NCBI RefSeq assembly: GCF_013408535.1 | Contig: NZ_JACBZA010000001.1 | Span: 248,001 to 312,000, forward strand | Length of the DNA stretch: 64,000 bases | Source: Actinopolymorpha cephalotaxi | Lineage (GTDB): Bacteria; Actinomycetota; Actinomycetes; Propionibacteriales; Actinopolymorphaceae | Direction: 5' to 3' | In this document: positions 35,172-42,266 of the stretch, piece by piece | Numbering within the stretch: position 1 is the first letter of the stretch | How the letters are laid out: the number at the start of each line of letters is the position of its first letter | Program-made: the position numbers and the translations under genes | Notes under the pieces: model-generated | What the model saw: only the letters and a program-made list of their open reading frames with translations | Told to the model about the DNA's origin: nothing | The model's database searches: none

Positions 35172-35633
35172 TCAGCGGTCCGACTCGGGCCAGACGTAGG
35201 GCAGATCGGGCGGTACGCCGGGAAACAGCTCGGCGTACGTCGCACTGTCCTTGCGCACCAGCGCGGACTGGTGACTGCGGTGGAAGTCCGGGTCGCCCAG
35301 CCACGGGGGCAGCTCCCCTGCGTCGGCGAGGGCGGGCTGGTCGCGGACCTCCTCCCGGCCGGTGGCCAGCGCGAGGTCGGCCCGCAGGGTGGCCGCGCAG
35401 GTGTCCTTCCGGCCGGTGTCCGTCCAGACCCGGCAGACCTCCAGCCCGTACCTCGCCAGCGCCTCGGGGTAGCCGGTCCACATCCGCACCACCGGGTGGT
35501 GCCGCCAGCCGTAGCCGGGGACGGTCAGCCCGCGCAGCGCCTGCAGGGCCTCCACCCGCTGCTTGCCCAGCCGCCGCTGGTCGAGGACCCGGGCGGAGGC
35601 GGCGAAGTCGGCGTACGGCAGGAAGGTCTGCAT
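35172..35633 (-). CDS. MSMEG_6728-family conserved protein
   Basis: A 153-residue protein with MQTFLPYADFAASARVLDQRRLGKQRVEALQ at its start (shown here as FAASARVLDQRRLGKQRV), a pattern I know from actinobacterial proteins named after MSMEG_6728 and related to pyrimidine-dimer-glycosylase-like domains. WRHHPVVRMW and HRSHQSALVRKD are conserved too. No function is shown for the family, though a nucleic-acid role is suspected. It is the last gene of the minus-strand run that starts with mauE, 53 bp after the MauA-like gene, and may be unrelated to it. Confidence 0.75.
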   Translation of the reverse strand: MQTFLPYADFAASARVLDQRRLGKQRVEALQALRGLTVPGYGWRHHPVVRMWTGYPEALARYGLEVCRVWTDTGRKDTCAATLRADLALATGREEVRDQPALADAGELPPWLGDPDFHRSHQSALVRKDSATYAELFPGVPPDLPYVWPESDR

Positions 35634-35686: not shown

Positions 35687-36256
35687 CTACTCCAGGTACT
35701 CCCGGCACGCGGACTTGTAGTGGTAGTCCGGCCCGCAGTCGTTCAGGACGTAGGTCTTGCCGTCGGAGCAGATCACGCTCGGCAGGTTTCCGCCGGACTG
35801 TCCTCGCCGCCACACCCAGGCGTTGATGACCTCGGTGCCGGCGAGGTTCCAGCACCGGAAGTCGATCCGGTAGTCCTCGTACTCGCACTCGTCGACCCAC
35901 CTGCCGTTGACCGCCGTGCGGTGCCGCCTGATGTTGGGCTTGCAGTAGCGCCTGCTCACCCGCGCGGCGTCGGGATTGCACCACCGCCAGTCGGTCCGCC
36001 GCGAGCCGGTGCTGTAGTCGTGGCAGTTGTTCCAGTACTCCCATGGGTCGCTGCCGTGCCGGCTGGCCTGTGCCTCGCGGCGGCCGGGCAGCAGGTCCAG
36101 GGCGCTCAGGCCGAGCACCATGCCGGTGGTCAGGACGCCCTTGAGCAGGCTGCGGCGGTTGATGTGGTCGCGTTCGATCAGCTTGCGTACCGCGCTCGGT
36201 GTGGCGTTCGGGGGCGGCGTGCTCGCGCTCGGAACCGTGGGGATGGCAGCGGTCAT
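35687..36256 (-). CDS. MauA-like secreted Cys/Trp-rich protein, TAT leader
   Basis: A 189-residue exported protein. Residues about 30-65 form a twin-arginine leader (INRRSLLKGVLTTGMVLGL) followed by a short polar cleavage region. The mature part has eight Cys and eight Trp, with DPWEYWNNCHDYS and GRWVDECEYEDYRIDFRC that can be laid by eye on the light chain of methylamine dehydrogenase (MauA), which has a similar length (about 188) and a similar TAT leader. MauA makes TTQ from two Trp; the first fits GRWVDEC, but the second position reads VICSDG here rather than a Trp-Cys pair. So a classical TTQ may not form. MauE and MauD genes lie in the same operon. ATG overlaps the previous stop. Confidence 0.7.
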   Translation of the reverse strand: MTAAIPTVPSASTPPPNATPSAVRKLIERDHINRRSLLKGVLTTGMVLGLSALDLLPGRREAQASRHGSDPWEYWNNCHDYSTGSRRTDWRWCNPDAARVSRRYCKPNIRRHRTAVNGRWVDECEYEDYRIDFRCWNLAGTEVINAWVWRRGQSGGNLPSVICSDGKTYVLNDCGPDYHYKSACREYLE

Positions 36257-37032
36257 GACGATCCCTTCCGTCGGGTGGTGGGCCGCTCGGGCGCCCAGCA
36301 CAGTTCGGTGACCCGGTGCAGGAACTCCACCCGCTGCTCGCAGCGGTGTTTGTGGTCGCGTTCACCGGCGACGGTCGTGACGGTGGACGGGGTGGCGTGG
36401 ACGACGACCATGTCCGTGGACTCCGCCGACGCGGGGGAGACCTCCTCCGCCCACACCTCACCGGTGGGCACCGTCGCGCCCGACCACACCGGCACCAGCC
36501 GGTGCGCAAGGGCGGGTTGACGGATGTCGAGGTGGCCGACCCCGGGCACCCGCTTGCTGACCTCGAGCACCTCGACGGTGTGCGCGGCGGGCCTGGCCGC
36601 GGTCACCCGCAGGCCTTCCGGGCTGTCGTGGAAGCCGAGCCCGGCGAAGTACCGGAGTACGTGCGAACCCGGCATCTTCGGGTCCGGCAGCCAGGTTGCC
36701 GCCTCGTGCCAGGGTCCCCGCCACACCGCGAGTCCCTGGTCGGCCGTGTCGCTGTGGCCGATCATGCACTGGCCGCCCTGCATCTGTACGACGTTGCTCC
36801 AGTGCCCGTCGACGACGCGTTCGAGGACGTGGTCGTAGTTGCCGGCCCTGGCGATGTGCAACTGGCGCAGGTCGAGGCCCTCCGGCGTACCCGCGTACGG
36901 CCGGTTGGTGGTGATGCGGACCGAGGCCGACCACGGCTCGGTCAGGTCGTATCCGGGTGCGCACAGCGTCACCCGGCCGCCGTCCGCGGCCCGGAAGTGC
37001 GTGCGTTCGGCGGCGCGCTGGTCGTCGTGCAC
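36253..37032 (-). CDS. Unknown protein of the mau-like operon
   Basis: A 259-residue protein that I do not recognise. It lacks a signal peptide and membrane helix. Motifs worth noting are VTLCAPGYDLTEPWSASV, GLDLRQLHIARAGNYDHVLE and QMQGGQCMIGHSDTAD. The mix of beta-strand-like segments would suit a cytoplasmic enzyme or chaperone. Start GTG 37032 has AGGAGCCAC upstream. Its stop overlaps the ATG of the MauA-like gene (ATGA), so it is translationally coupled and probably needed for making or modifying that protein. Confidence 0.65.
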   Translation of the reverse strand: MHDDQRAAERTHFRAADGGRVTLCAPGYDLTEPWSASVRITTNRPYAGTPEGLDLRQLHIARAGNYDHVLERVVDGHWSNVVQMQGGQCMIGHSDTADQGLAVWRGPWHEAATWLPDPKMPGSHVLRYFAGLGFHDSPEGLRVTAARPAAHTVEVLEVSKRVPGVGHLDIRQPALAHRLVPVWSGATVPTGEVWAEEVSPASAESTDMVVVHATPSTVTTVAGERDHKHRCEQRVEFLHRVTELCWAPERPTTRRKGSS

Positions 37033-37114
37033 CGTGGCTCCTGTTCGTCGTCGTAGCGGTCGTCGTGGTGGTGGTCGGGTCGGGGCAGGGGTCGGGGCGA
37101 GGTCGGTCAGGTGG

Positions 37115-37675
37115 TCAGCCGGTCCTGGTGGCGGCCAGCAGGACCACGGCCAGGACGCAGCCGCAGGCGAAGGTCAGCAGCGGGCGCAGGGTCCGGTCGT
37201 ACGTCGCGAGCCGGGCGTCCCAGTGGCCGTCGTCGCGATGGGCGTGCCGGGCCAGCACCATCGCGGCCCGCCCGGCGCCGAACGCCAGCCCGGCGGCCAG
37301 TCCCTGCGGCCAGGTCGCGCACAGCGCCACGGTCAGCACCAGCACGTGCGGAAGGCCCGTGGTCATGTACGTCCGTACGCCGGTGCCCATCTCGAAGCCG
37401 AAGTGCAGCGCGCCGTAGCGGGGACCGTCGTCCCCGATCGACTCCGGAACCTGCCGGCCGTTCTGCGGCAGCGGCAGCCGCAGGACGCCGAGTTCGTTCA
37501 GGCAGACCAGCACGGCGACCGCGCCGACCACGAACGCGGCCGGGACCGGGCGTACGACCGGCCGCACCAGCAGGCCGAGCGCCACCGCGACCACCGCGCT
37601 GGTGAGGCCTCCGGCCAGCAGGCCGGCACTGAACCACCACCGGGAACGTTCTCGCCAGACCGACGAGACCAGCAT
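37115..37675 (-). CDS. Polytopic membrane protein of the mau-like operon
   Basis: A 186-residue protein with about four hydrophobic helices (LLAGGLTSAVVAVALGLLV, AAFVVGAVAVLVCLNELGVL, VLVLTVALCATW, LTFACGCVLAVVLLAA). The loop LPLPQNGRQVPES and GFEMGTGVRTYMTTGLPH resemble loops of CcdA/DsbD-like electron-carrier membrane proteins that I have seen next to MauD/MauE-type genes, so it may pass electrons for disulfide formation or reduction outside the membrane. That role is inference. Confidence 0.65.
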   Translation of the reverse strand: MLVSSVWRERSRWWFSAGLLAGGLTSAVVAVALGLLVRPVVRPVPAAFVVGAVAVLVCLNELGVLRLPLPQNGRQVPESIGDDGPRYGALHFGFEMGTGVRTYMTTGLPHVLVLTVALCATWPQGLAAGLAFGAGRAAMVLARHAHRDDGHWDARLATYDRTLRPLLTFACGCVLAVVLLAATRTG

Positions 37676-37690
37676 CGCCGAGTTGTGGCT

Positions 37691-37912
37691 TCATACCGAT
37701 CCCGAGATCGAGTACCCCGCGGCCAGTGCCAGCACGACCCAGGCGAGCAGGACCGGGGCGGTGGCGAACGCCCACCACCAGGTCAGCGCGGGCACCGTCA
37801 GTGCAGCCACGGCGAGCACGGCGCCGGGCGCCAGCGGATGGGTGAGGCGCCGCCGGACGCGGGGTGAGCCGGTCCCGCCGACGGAGCTCACCGGGCCTGT
37901 CCTGGTCGACAT
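37691..37912 (-). CDS. Small membrane protein of the mau-like operon
   Basis: A 73-residue product with a polar N-terminus of about 25 residues and one or two hydrophobic segments (GAVLAVAALTVPALTWWWAF, LLAWVVLALAAGYSI). It begins 7 nt after the mauD-like stop and has no clear ribosome site, so translation would depend on coupling. No known family. Confidence 0.5.
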   Translation of the reverse strand: MSTRTGPVSSVGGTGSPRVRRRLTHPLAPGAVLAVAALTVPALTWWWAFATAPVLLAWVVLALAAGYSISGSV

Positions 37913-37919
37913 GGCGACG

Positions 37920-38492
37920 TCAGCTGTTCTGGGTGGGTGCGGTCGCTGCGGCCTCGGCCAGCGCCTCGGCGTCGGTGACCACCGCGTCGAGGACCTTCTT
38001 CGAGCCGGCCGGTTCCCGGGTCACCATGGCGCCGGCCCGGTCCAGAACCACGATCGCCGGCCGCCAGCCCGGATCCAGCAGGTGGCAGGCGATCGAGTCC
38101 GCGACGAACCTGGCGCCGGTGAGTCCGGCGAACTTCGCCACCGGCGTCCGGGCGAGCACCACGAAGTCCACCGCCGCCGAGGACTTGTTCGCCAGGTCGT
38201 CGAAGTACGGCGCGACCTCCGCGCACACCGGGCAGTTGTCGTCGACGAGCAGGACGAGGGCGCACGCCGCGTCGTCTCGCGGGCGTACCGACAGCGGAGT
38301 CTGCGGGTTGTCCGGGATCGTTCCCACACCAAGCGCACTGTGCGCCGCACCGCCCGCCGTGGCCGGCACGCCGGCCGCACTCGCGACGCCGGCCTGCAGG
38401 TCGCGGAGCTGGCGCAGCATGCCGGCCATCGCGAAGGCGAGGAGCACCAACGCCAACCAGGCGAGGACGACCGCGCCGACAAGGGTTTCCAT
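37920..38492 (-). CDS. mauD: MauD-like thioredoxin-fold protein
   Basis: A 190-residue membrane-anchored thioredoxin-like protein. One N-terminal helix (VGAVVLAWLALVLLAFAMAGML) is followed by a periplasm-facing domain whose active site is CPVC in VDDNCPVCAEVAPYF near residue 82. MauD is needed in methylotrophs to form the disulfides of the amine dehydrogenase light chain. The ATG has GGAGGAACTG before it and overlaps the stop of the MauE-like gene by one base. Confidence 0.8.
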   Translation of the reverse strand: METLVGAVVLAWLALVLLAFAMAGMLRQLRDLQAGVASAAGVPATAGGAAHSALGVGTIPDNPQTPLSVRPRDDAACALVLLVDDNCPVCAEVAPYFDDLANKSSAAVDFVVLARTPVAKFAGLTGARFVADSIACHLLDPGWRPAIVVLDRAGAMVTREPAGSKKVLDAVVTDAEALAEAAATAPTQNS

Positions 38493-39100
38493 CAGTTCCT
38501 CCGGAACGAGGTGGTTCGAGACGACGGGTGGACGAGCGTGGCGGGCACCAGGGCGGTGAGAACGGCCAGCACGAGTGCCGGGACGAGGACGGACACCGAC
38601 GCGAGCCGGCCCGTCCCGGTCAGGCTCTCGACGAACGGTGTGGGACCGGCGGAAAGACCCGCGGCGGCCGCGGCCACCGCGGCGAAGACCCCGGCCCGTA
38701 TCAGGACGGGCGCCCGGACCGGCCCGTCGTCGCGCAGGCAACCGCACGGCGCGTCGGGACGGGTGCGCCGCAACACCGTCAGGTACACCAGAAACCCTGT
38801 GTAGACGAGGGCTTCGCCGACCATCGCGGGCAGCACGAGCCGGCTCGGCAGGGCCGAGGTCCTGCGCAACGACGACAGGGTGCCGGCGACGACGGCGCCG
38901 CCCACGCCGACCTCGGCCACCACCAGTGCGGCCGCACCGGCCCGGGATCCGCCGCGGGGCAGCAGGCGGTGTACCAGCAGGGTCGCCCGGAGCCGGCCGA
39001 ACGCCCGCGCGTGACCGAGACCGGCCCACAGGAGAAGCAGTCCGCCGGCCACGGCGACGGCCGAGCAGACCAGCTCCGCGACCGACCGCACTGCATCCAC
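38492..39100 (-). CDS. mauE: MauE/DoxX-like membrane protein
   Basis: A 202-residue membrane protein with four to five helices. DAPCGCLRDDGPV around residue 115 is the CGC loop of MauE-type proteins, which work with MauD in maturing disulfide-rich light chains. GTG 39100 is preferred because AGGGGGATTCG precedes it, though the frame stays open farther upstream through the PDTK-coding 15-bp repeats. It is the first gene of the mau-like operon. Confidence 0.8.
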   Translation of the reverse strand: MDAVRSVAELVCSAVAVAGGLLLLWAGLGHARAFGRLRATLLVHRLLPRGGSRAGAAALVVAEVGVGGAVVAGTLSSLRRTSALPSRLVLPAMVGEALVYTGFLVYLTVLRRTRPDAPCGCLRDDGPVRAPVLIRAGVFAAVAAAAAGLSAGPTPFVESLTGTGRLASVSVLVPALVLAVLTALVPATLVHPSSRTTSFRRN

Positions 39101-39336: not shown

Positions 39337-39380
39337 GAAGTCGTCTTTGTGCGTTGGTGGCTCCGGCCGAGGAGATCCGC

Positions 39381-40202
39381 ATGTCGAAACTTCGTCGCCG
39401 CATCGACGAACAGGGTTACGTCGTGGTCCCCGGCGTGGTCCCGAGAAAGAACGTGGACGCGGTGGTGGCCGACATCTGGCGGCACACCGGAGCCGACCCC
39501 GCCGACCGGAGCACGTGGTACGCCCCGGACCGGATCGGACCGGCCGGCATGGTGGAGATGTATCACTACCAGTCGATGTGGGACACCCGCCAGGACGAAC
39601 GGGTGCACGAGGTGTTCGCCGAGATCTTCGGCAGCGAACGGCTGTGGGTGAGCATCGACCGTACGAACCTCAAACCGCCGTCGGTCCCGGAGTATCCCGA
39701 CTACCACCACCGCGGCTTCCTGCACTGGGACGCCGACATCGAGCGGTATCCCGACATCCCGTTCGGGGTGCAGGGCGTGCTCGCCCTGGCCGACACCTCC
39801 GAGGACATGGGTGGCTTCCAGTGCGTTCCGAGCATCTACCAGAACCTCCCTGCCTACCTGGAGAAGTACGGCCGGTCCCGGCAGGCCGACCTGACCGAGC
39901 ACACTCCGGTGCAGGTGCCGTTGCGGGCCGGTGACATGGTCATCTGGACCTCGCTGCTGGCCCACGGCAACGGCGACAACCTGACCGACCGCCCCCGCCT
40001 GGCGCAGTACATCTCGATGAACCCCGCGCGGGAGACCGACGACCAGGCACGGCAGGCACGCATCGACGCCTGGCAGGAGAACCGCCCGCTCGCACATCAC
40101 CGCGCCTTCCCCGGTGACCCGCGCGGGATCGAGGCGGCGCGTGGCCGGCCGGCCGAGCTCACCTCCCTGGGCCGGCGGCTGCTGGGCCTGGATCGCTGGT
40201 AG
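39381..40202 (+). CDS. Phytanoyl-CoA dioxygenase-family protein
   Basis: A 273-residue Fe(II)/2-oxoglutarate-dependent oxygenase of the PhyH family. The iron ligands are His and Asp in HWDAD near residue 115 and His in LLAHGNGDN near 194; the 2OG-binding Arg is in TDRPRLAQY. Substrates in the family range from fatty acyl-CoAs to ectoine and natural-product intermediates, so the role is open. ATG 39381 has GGAG 6-7 nt upstream. It is alone; the binding-protein gene begins 114 bp later and may or may not be linked. Confidence 0.87.
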   Translation: MSKLRRRIDEQGYVVVPGVVPRKNVDAVVADIWRHTGADPADRSTWYAPDRIGPAGMVEMYHYQSMWDTRQDERVHEVFAEIFGSERLWVSIDRTNLKPPSVPEYPDYHHRGFLHWDADIERYPDIPFGVQGVLALADTSEDMGGFQCVPSIYQNLPAYLEKYGRSRQADLTEHTPVQVPLRAGDMVIWTSLLAHGNGDNLTDRPRLAQYISMNPARETDDQARQARIDAWQENRPLAHHRAFPGDPRGIEAARGRPAELTSLGRRLLGLDRW

Positions 40203-40316
40203 CCCCTGACGCCGGCGGCGAGGTTCGGGTCGGCGGTGGAGGCCGTCGACCCACGGGGAGTGTGAACGCACGTGTGTGCGGGGGTGGTGTGTGGCCAGGA
40301 GCCCTAGGAGGCGGAC

Positions 40317-42266
40317 ATGACAGACGCGGTGACCCGGCGGGACGTCCTGCGGGTGGGTGGAGTCGCGGTGACGGTCGCGGTGACCGGAAGCGCGTGCAGC
40401 TTCCTGTCCACCAAGCCCAGCGGCAGCGACTCCGACGCCGGCTCGGGGAAGAAGACGAAGGAGCCGCCCACGCTGGCCGCCAAGGTCAAGGCCGGGAAGC
40501 TGCCGCCTGTCAAGGACAGGTTGCCCGCCAAGCCACTGGTGGTGAAGCCGAACGAGAAGATCGGACGGTACGGCGGGGCCTGGCACCTGCGGATCAAGGG
40601 CGAGGCCTACGGCGACGCCGCGACGATCTACTCCTTCGCCGGCTACGAGAACCTCGTGCGCTGGGACCCGACGTTCAAGAAGGTCGTCCCGGACATCGCC
40701 ACCAGCTACCAGGTCAACGCCGCCAGCACGGAGTACACCTTCGTACTCCGCGAGGGCATGCGCTGGTCGGACGGAAAGCCGTTCGGACCCGACGACGTGG
40801 TGTTCGCCGTCCAGGACATCCTGATGGACAAGCGGATCACGTCGATCCCGCCGTTCGGTGACATGAAAGCCACCAAGGTGGACGACCACACCGTCAAGGT
40901 CACCTTCACCAAGCCCAACGGGACGTTCGTGAACTACCTCGCCACCCGTCGCGGCGCGGCCCTGACCGACTATCCCCGCCACTACCTCGAGAAGTTCCAC
41001 CCGAAGTACAACCCCCAGCACGCCGCCCAGGCCAAGAAGATCGGCTTCAAGGACGGGATCACCGTCCTGCAGGACGTGGGCGGCACCTGGAGCTTCGGCC
41101 GCAACCCCGACAAGCCGACGTTGTACGCGTGGGTGCTCACCACCACCTCCGACCAGAAGTCCCAGGTGGTGGTGGAGCGCAACCCGTACTACTGGAAGGT
41201 CGACCCGGAGGGCAGCCAGCTGCCCTACATCGACCGGATCGTCTACTCGGTGGTGGGCGACGACGAGGCCGCGCTGCTGAAGACCCTCAACGGCGAGCTC
41301 GACGTGGCGACGCCGCAGTTGAAGGACAAGCCGATCGTGGCGAAGTACCGCGAACGCGGCGACTTCCGGCTCTTCGACGTCGTGCCCGAGGCGATGAACG
41401 TCGCCTGCATCTACCCCAACCTCACCCACGACGACCCGGTCAAGCGGGAGATCTTCAACAACCGCAACTTCCGGGTCGGGCTGTCGCACGCCATCAACCG
41501 GCCGGAGATCATCAAGGCGGTGTTCCAGCGGCAGGGCGAGCCCTGGCAGGTGGCGCCGCGCAAGGAGTCGACCTACCTCGACAAGGAGATGGCCACGCAG
41601 TACACCGAGTACGACGTGGCCCAGGCGAACGAGATCCTGGACAAGGAGTACCCGAAGAAGGACGCGAGGGGTGTACGCCTGGGCCCGGACGGCAAGCCCA
41701 TCTCGTTCCTCGTCGACGTGGCCACCATCGTGCCCACCTGGACCGACGTCCTCTCGCTGGTGGTCGGCTTCTGGCAGAAGGTCGGCATCGACGCGCACGT
41801 GAACTCCGGCAGCCCGGAGATCGTGGTCGAACGCGGTTCGGCCAACAAGCACGACTTCTCGGTGTGGGCGGGCGAGGGTGGCCTGGACGGCGTGGTGCTG
41901 CTGAACCCCTACAACTACCTGCCGTTGCTCAACCCGTACTCGTTCTTCGGGGTGAAGTGGGCGGAGTGGTACAACTCCAGGGGCAAGGCCGGCGAGCGGC
42001 CACCGGCCGACGTACGTCAGCAGATGACGTTGTACGACAAGGTGAACGCCACGTCGGACATGGACGAGCAGGCCCGGCTGATGAAGGAGATCCTCACGAT
42101 CGCCAAGCAGCGCTTCCACGCCATCGGGATCGCCGCCCTGCCCAACGGCTACGGCACGGTGGCGAACAAGATCGGCAACTGGCCGAAGTTCACCACCGAG
42201 GGCGCCTGGGTCTACATGTCGCCCGCGCCGACGAATCCCTGCCAGTACTACATAAAGCCGAGCTGA
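40317..42266 (+). CDS. ABC transporter substrate-binding lipoprotein, family 5
   Basis: A 649-residue solute-binding protein of the peptide/oligosaccharide family 5. TRRDVLRVGGVAV is a twin-arginine signal and TGSAC the lipobox, so it is a TAT-exported lipoprotein. The SBP_bac_5 core is shown by YTFVLREGMRWSDGKPF near residue 145 and later by repeated N/Y-rich segments. The ATG has AGGAGGCGGAC just before it. No permease or ATPase genes follow, and a terminator lies right after the stop, so it is an orphan that must use a transporter encoded elsewhere. Confidence 0.9.
   Translation: MTDAVTRRDVLRVGGVAVTVAVTGSACSFLSTKPSGSDSDAGSGKKTKEPPTLAAKVKAGKLPPVKDRLPAKPLVVKPNEKIGRYGGAWHLRIKGEAYGDAATIYSFAGYENLVRWDPTFKKVVPDIATSYQVNAASTEYTFVLREGMRWSDGKPFGPDDVVFAVQDILMDKRITSIPPFGDMKATKVDDHTVKVTFTKPNGTFVNYLATRRGAALTDYPRHYLEKFHPKYNPQHAAQAKKIGFKDGITVLQDVGGTWSFGRNPDKPTLYAWVLTTTSDQKSQVVVERNPYYWKVDPEGSQLPYIDRIVYSVVGDDEAALLKTLNGELDVATPQLKDKPIVAKYRERGDFRLFDVVPEAMNVACIYPNLTHDDPVKREIFNNRNFRVGLSHAINRPEIIKAVFQRQGEPWQVAPRKESTYLDKEMATQYTEYDVAQANEILDKEYPKKDARGVRLGPDGKPISFLVDVATIVPTWTDVLSLVVGFWQKVGIDAHVNSGSPEIVVERGSANKHDFSVWAGEGGLDGVVLLNPYNYLPLLNPYSFFGVKWAEWYNSRGKAGERPPADVRQQMTLYDKVNATSDMDEQARLMKEILTIAKQRFHAIGIAALPNGYGTVANKIGNWPKFTTEGAWVYMSPAPTNPCQYYIKPS

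Follow-up and report, generated by a model that had tools for sequence, protein, structure and literature searches.

The window analysed here, a stretch of 64,000 nucleotides from the Actinopolymorpha cephalotaxi genome (contig NZ_JACBZA010000001.1, positions 248,001 to 312,000), contains a compact operon in which homologues of the accessory proteins of methylamine dehydrogenase (Mau proteins) are encoded together with a cysteine-rich protein carrying an Arg-Arg leader. The host genome of 6.86 Mb is assembled as a single contig with 99.7% completeness, and inspection of the open reading frames (ORFs) found six consecutive minus-strand frames at 35687-39100, all of them intact. The first gene in the direction of reading is mauE (38492..39100; 202 residues, GTG start), encoding a DoxX-family redox membrane protein with a Cys-Gly-Cys motif, followed by a mauD-like gene (37920..38492) for a protein of 190 residues with an N-terminal hydrophobic segment and a thioredoxin-type CPVC motif, by a gene for a 73-residue protein classed as hydrophobic from its hydropathy (37691..37912), and by a mauF-like gene (37115..37675) for a membrane protein of 186 residues, so named from hhalign comparison. 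The set is completed by a gene for a 259-residue protein (36253..37032; GTG start) and by that for the cysteine-rich protein of 189 residues, the presumed substrate (35687..36256). The mauE and mauD-like genes overlap by one base (TGATG), the 259-residue and 189-residue genes by four bases at the start of the latter, and the remaining intergenic gaps do not exceed 82 bases.

The six adjacent genes listed in the preliminary description of this DNA are thus real and tightly packed, and their order is shared by two further genomes of the genus, those of Actinopolymorpha rutila (L005) and of a second Actinopolymorpha (G004; L007). The nearest named relative found was A. rutila DSM 18448, whose version of the cysteine-rich protein shares 88% identity with that of the window, and the 73-residue protein is likewise kept in A. 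rutila and G004. Altogether, the 189-residue protein is present in four of the six genus genomes, with all eight cysteines retained in four orthologues, and it had no match in the two other family genomes searched. At the level of the order, matches were obtained in 5 of 245 genomes, the fifth of which (G159) has stop codons in frame. Weak matches of this kind, with stops in frame, were set aside in G159, G287, G568, G587, G318, G460 and G524; by eye, the ORFs at the G159 and G287 loci look like unrelated genes. Neither a search of a plasmid collection for relatives of the 189-residue protein nor a search of viral contigs for relatives of it or of the second exported family described below returned any.

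Methylamine dehydrogenase depends on MauD, MauE and MauF, whose mode of action is unsettled. The MauE assignment, including its Cys-Gly-Cys loop, holds: the protein scores 47.3 bits against PF07291 (cut-off 27), and an alignment of eight MauE proteins, two of them from genuine mau operons, leaves only Met1, Glu63 and Cys-Gly-Cys invariant. The protein with the CPVC motif had been called MauD-like, and this too is borne out at a distance, as it reaches 21.5 bits against the TIGR02661 equivalog model, whose cut-off is 188.6; three such proteins aligned with Paracoccus denitrificans MauD at an hhalign probability of 96.9 (E 1.6e-10), with 0 of 60 shuffles as good. On profile comparison, the product is a distant MauD homologue and no equivalog. 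Two membrane proteins had been left unclassified; both are present, and the larger can now be assigned, whereas the 73-residue one has no Pfam match over cut-off. Together with its actinobacterial relatives, the 186-residue protein matched three MauF proteins at a probability of 98.1 (E 8.3e-14), and the two Actinopolymorpha proteins alone did so at 90.7; in neither case did any of 60 shuffles score as well. As judged from these profiles, the protein is homologous to MauF over the membrane domain, which gives the operon the MauF-E-D accessory set. The N-terminal SPCG segment that is invariant in the three aligned MauF proteins is absent from it, and three of the six members of the MauF-like family have no cysteine at all, so that thiol chemistry does not appear to be a conserved task of the MauF-like protein. 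The 259-residue protein, as previously described, belongs to no Pfam family over cut-off, and no signal or membrane segment was found in it; a comparison with MauJ gave nothing.

The 189-residue protein contains eight cysteines and eight tryptophans and has about 125 mature residues. It had been likened to MauA, the light chain of methylamine dehydrogenase, in length, leader and a Trp-Val-x-x-Cys region, with one of the two tryptophans of the tryptophan tryptophylquinone (TTQ) cofactor thought to be replaced. The length, the Arg-Arg leader and the eight cysteines stand, and the pair Arg34-Arg35 is invariant in all 15 aligned proteins, MauA included; resemblance to MauA beyond leader and length does not. 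The profile search suggested for this protein returned no match to PF02975 (MauA) at E<=10, a model to which MauA of Paracoccus and Haematobacter scored 180 and 167 bits. With the leaders removed, 194 of 1000 shuffles in local alignment and 124 of 1000 in global alignment were as good as the real pair, and hhalign of the mature window family against MauA was equalled by 16 of 100 shuffles. The tryptophan of Trp-Val-x-x-Cys is an arginine in A. rutila, so that even the supposed remaining TTQ tryptophan is not conserved within the genus, and the second Trp-Cys has no counterpart, a VIC triplet being placed opposite MauA IIWC in an alignment that is itself weak; two tryptophans at these positions form TTQ in MauA. 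Given the missing profile match, the unbeaten shuffles and the Trp-to-Arg change, TTQ in this protein is very unlikely on sequence grounds, and descent from MauA is unproven. A PF02975 search of the host genome also found no match, in a run that had no working positive control, and searches against solved structures gave nothing better than E 0.27.

The cassette recurs in divergent form in G551, a genome from another class of Actinomycetota, where its genes lie in one run. This copy comprises a homologue of the 259-residue protein beside mauE (BLASTP E 3e-7), MauE (50.9 bits), a MauD-like protein, an exported protein with an Arg-Arg leader and 14 cysteines in its mature part, and a 62-residue hydrophobic ORF that by eye resembles the 73-residue protein; the contig ends at the cassette, which leaves a MauF-like gene there beyond judgement. 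The leader of its exported protein is 33% identical over 78 residues to that of the window protein. The mature parts share a weak likeness, which was equalled by 8 and 6 of 1000 shuffles in global alignment and by 97 and 264 of 1000 in local alignment, and global comparison of the G551 protein with a sister protein (see below) was matched by 226 and 107 of 1000 shuffles. Among 66 genomes of the class of G551, only G551 itself carries a copy, besides the weak match with a stop in frame in G587. A MauE profile built from three proteins and run on 326 genomes recovered only the window and G551, a result that says little on breadth with nine candidates scored per genome.

A related set recurs more widely. 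The Pfam model was more productive than the three-protein profile: of 246 genomes sampled from the phylum, 83 had a PF07291 match. From these, 17 MauE neighbourhoods were chosen by hand among the weaker matches in addition to that of G551. Five of these 17 were examined (L061, L063, L070, L071 and L073), and four contain what is here called the sister cassette; in the exception, L071:2968-5132 (G372), a gene that by eye is radical-S-adenosylmethionine-like (CNLDCPIC) begins within a MauE-like gene, and MauE thus occurs there away from mau genes. Three of the four sister neighbourhoods supplied seed proteins (P0001-P0003) for a search of 198 genomes, in which 23 had matches: 15 over the cysteine-rich part, and eight, the host genome among them, over the LGFP part only, which were left out of the 15. 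Each of the 15 genomes with the sister cysteine-rich protein has a MauE gene on the same strand no more than about 3.5 kb away from it, and this holds for 12 of 12 once the seeds are removed. In G253, G330, G329 and G319 the exported protein is accompanied by a CxxC thioredoxin-type protein (by eye), a MauF-like protein and a protein of about 168 residues, and the thioredoxin-type protein was also recognised by eye in G302, G421, G361 and G289; it has no Pfam match over cut-off.

Like the window operon, the sister cassette combines MauE, a thioredoxin-type protein, a MauF-like protein and an Arg-Arg-leader cysteine-rich protein, but it has the protein of about 168 residues, without detectable homology, in place of the 259-residue one, and kinship between these two was rejected because 17 of 60 shuffles aligned as well. 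The exported proteins differ as well: the 12 sister proteins that were aligned share 14 invariant cysteines and an invariant Trp-Trp (12/12), and some run into C-terminal repeats, LGFP being over cut-off in two of the three seeds and FG-GAP-like repeats below cut-off in one sister protein. No Pfam or NCBIfam model matched the sister cysteine-rich part over cut-off. The sister family was also considered as a relative of MauA and is not claimed as such, as the hhalign probability of 91 leaned on the leader and fell to 1.5 for the mature part alone, and the mature parts were equalled by 4 of 100 column shuffles, or 5 of 100 with the cysteine columns fixed. In L085, L086 and L087 the exported proteins carry at least 200 residues of FG-GAP-like or GYWL repeats after the cysteine-rich domain, with Pfam scores below cut-offs; these might fold into propellers, so that one chain could mirror the MauA/MauB pair in covalent form. 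The host genome also has, some 18 kb ahead of the window (C1:226607-229815), two long frames containing LGFP repeats.

One way to understand these genes is that the cysteine-rich protein binds or stores metal while the Mau proteins act in the direction of DsbD and maintain its thiols in the reduced state. Relatives of MauD and MauF are indeed also similar to reductive proteins: one sister MauF-like protein reaches E 6e-5 with DsbD_2, narrowly missing the cut-off, another matches DsbD_TM at E 0.003, and a sister cassette adjoins metal transporter-like genes, which by eye are of the CbiM/CbiQ/CbiO type (L070:3552-6087, G330). A DsbD-type thiol relay is nonetheless hard to reconcile with MauF-like proteins that lack the SPCG segment and in half of the family lack cysteine, and the exported proteins gave no match to any known metal-binding family, which makes a metal-handling role improbable.

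Neither PF06433 (MauB) nor PF03150 (MauG) had a match in any of the 17 carrier genomes (the window, G551 and the 15 sister carriers), several of which are drafts that might miss a gene, while a Paracoccus plasmid used as control scored 702 and 147 bits, respectively. The earlier proposal of mau machinery without MauB or MauG is thus upheld, and the case for it is strengthened by the presence of a MauF homologue and by the recurrence of a related set across Actinomycetota with no match to either enzyme. Compared with the mauFBEDACJGMN operon of Paracoccus denitrificans PD1222 (L018), the window operon likewise places MauE, MauD and MauF homologues beside a cysteine-rich protein with an Arg-Arg leader, but it has no match to MauB, MauG or MauJ, amicyanin, at which no search by model was directed, is also missing from it, its 73-residue and 259-residue genes are extra, its MauF-like protein lacks the SPCG segment, and its exported protein cannot be aligned to MauA above chance. 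The shared MauF, MauE and MauD could in principle mean that the window operon is what is left of a methylamine dehydrogenase operon in decay, after loss of mauB, mauG and a functional mauA. Such decay is highly improbable in view of six intact frames in the same order in three genomes, two extra genes that belong to the operon, and the divergent copy in another class and the sister set of 15 genomes, all of them free of MauB and MauG matches.

The preliminary description had envisaged a different tryptophan- or cysteine-derived cofactor, and one rival reading is that the set introduces such a cofactor or a new crosslink into the exported protein, an oxidase of another kind standing in for MauG. 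In the mau operon, the accessory proteins do work for a TTQ-bearing protein, the window protein has its eight tryptophans and eight cysteines, and Trp-Trp is invariant throughout the aligned sister proteins. Nevertheless, the tryptophan in the TTQ-like context is replaced by arginine in A. rutila, MauG was matched in 0 of 17 carrier genomes, no oxidase is recognisable among the six genes, and the sister Trp-Trp has no counterpart in the window protein in any trustworthy alignment, so that this chemistry is quite unlikely here. The suggestion of a new purpose survives in its other form: a disulfide-rich exported protein fits better, whereas no test points to a tryptophan-derived cofactor in this species.

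Use of mauE and mauD outside methylamine metabolism has already been proposed in print (PMC7794033). There, the decRiPPter survey of candidate clusters for ribosomally synthesised and post-translationally modified peptides (RiPPs) in Streptomyces found mauE, and in one family also mauD, away from methylamine dehydrogenase; the function of MauD is called unclear, and the speculation is reported that MauE introduces the disulfides of MauA (PMC7794033). The likeness to the window lies in this reuse, while the predicted precursors of those clusters are small, and neither MauF nor the 259-residue protein is mentioned in the accessible text (PMC7794033). A second parallel is offered by humidimycin, for which the DoxX protein HumE and the thioredoxin protein HumF are assigned the formation of two disulfides; a DoxX-family membrane protein is again paired with a thioredoxin protein acting on an exported product, but the substrate is a lasso peptide of 21 residues, and the accessible portion of that paper mentions neither a MauF-like protein nor a twin-arginine leader (PMC7168211). 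Both precedents would suit a RiPP-like 189-residue protein from which a bioactive peptide or small protein is made for secretion, with the Mau proteins as tailoring enzymes. We regard such a precursor as unlikely, since about 125 mature residues are large for a RiPP, the six genes include neither a protease nor a RiPP enzyme, and the long C-terminal repeats of the sister proteins suit surface proteins. No description of the present cassette was found in the literature searched, which left most subscription papers outside.

Taken together, these comparisons make it likely that the operon is a dedicated maturation line for one exported cysteine-rich protein, drawn from mau accessory proteins and operating without methylamine dehydrogenase. 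Its most likely role would be that of a membrane thiol-redox line making the disulfides of this single dedicated client. The 189-residue precursor would be exported by way of the Arg-Arg leader, and membrane-anchored MauD would exchange thiols through CPVC with the eight cysteines, yielding up to four disulfides. By analogy with DsbB or VKOR, MauE may regenerate MauD through Cys-Gly-Cys and the conserved glutamate, exchanging electrons with the membrane pool in one direction or the other. The MauF-like protein, lacking the SPCG segment and often any cysteine, would support the MauD/MauE pair without thiol chemistry of its own, and the 259-residue protein could act as a cytosolic partner that handles the precursor before export. 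A cell-surface role is our best guess for the finished protein, by analogy with the sister proteins in the same slot, some of which carry surface-type (LGFP) repeats, and the related gene sets in other actinobacteria have the look of a maturation line, so far uncharacterised, that serves surface proteins.

Several observations weigh against a dedicated maturation line of this kind. The leader of the 189-residue protein stays below the cut-offs of the export-signal models, with 14.4 bits for TIGR01409 (cut-off 16.7) and 12.1 bits for PF10518 (cut-off 22.7), and the protein was not found in two of the six genus genomes. Structure prediction was unusable for both the 189-residue and the 259-residue proteins, with predicted local distance difference test (pLDDT) values of 34 and 28, respectively. 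Moreover, a common substrate family was tried and is not claimed, 83 and 81 of 100 shuffles being as good as the alignment of the window and sister mature parts. As these parts do not align above chance, the argument for a shared kind of substrate rests on leader, cysteine content and gene context.

A natural set of MauF, MauE and MauD that has no MauB or MauG match beside it uncouples thiol-redox work from cofactor synthesis and opens the roles of the three proteins to tests with one small substrate. The analysis also brings out an Arg-Arg-leader protein family, spread over several actinobacterial classes, in which 14 cysteines are invariant. A bolder conjecture, which we hold to be unlikely in its entirety, is that Actinomycetota possess an undescribed maturation system for Arg-Arg-leader cysteine-rich surface proteins, from which the mau accessory genes arose or which arose from them. 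In the sister cassette, the invariant Trp-Trp and the 14 invariant cysteines would then be processed jointly into a new crosslink or cofactor, and methylamine dehydrogenase would be a single specialised user of general machinery.

Beyond these sets, a clinical Pseudomonas aeruginosa plasmid, pF061_1 (L107), has recombinase genes on either side of a set that encodes an amine dehydrogenase large subunit and light chain, MauE, MauD and two cytochromes c. Directly downstream of the window operon lies a minus-strand gene (35172-35633) for a pyrimidine-dimer DNA glycosylase homologue (PF03013, 71.7 bits; NF038085, 249 bits), which is the same downstream gene in A. rutila and G004. On the other side, divergent from mauE, plus-strand genes at 39354-42266 resemble by eye a PhyH-type Fe/2-oxoglutarate dioxygenase and a peptide-type ATP-binding cassette (ABC) binding protein; the ABC-type genes from 40317 onward are divergent from the operon, and the dioxygenase-like and binding protein-like genes also adjoin mauE in A. 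rutila.

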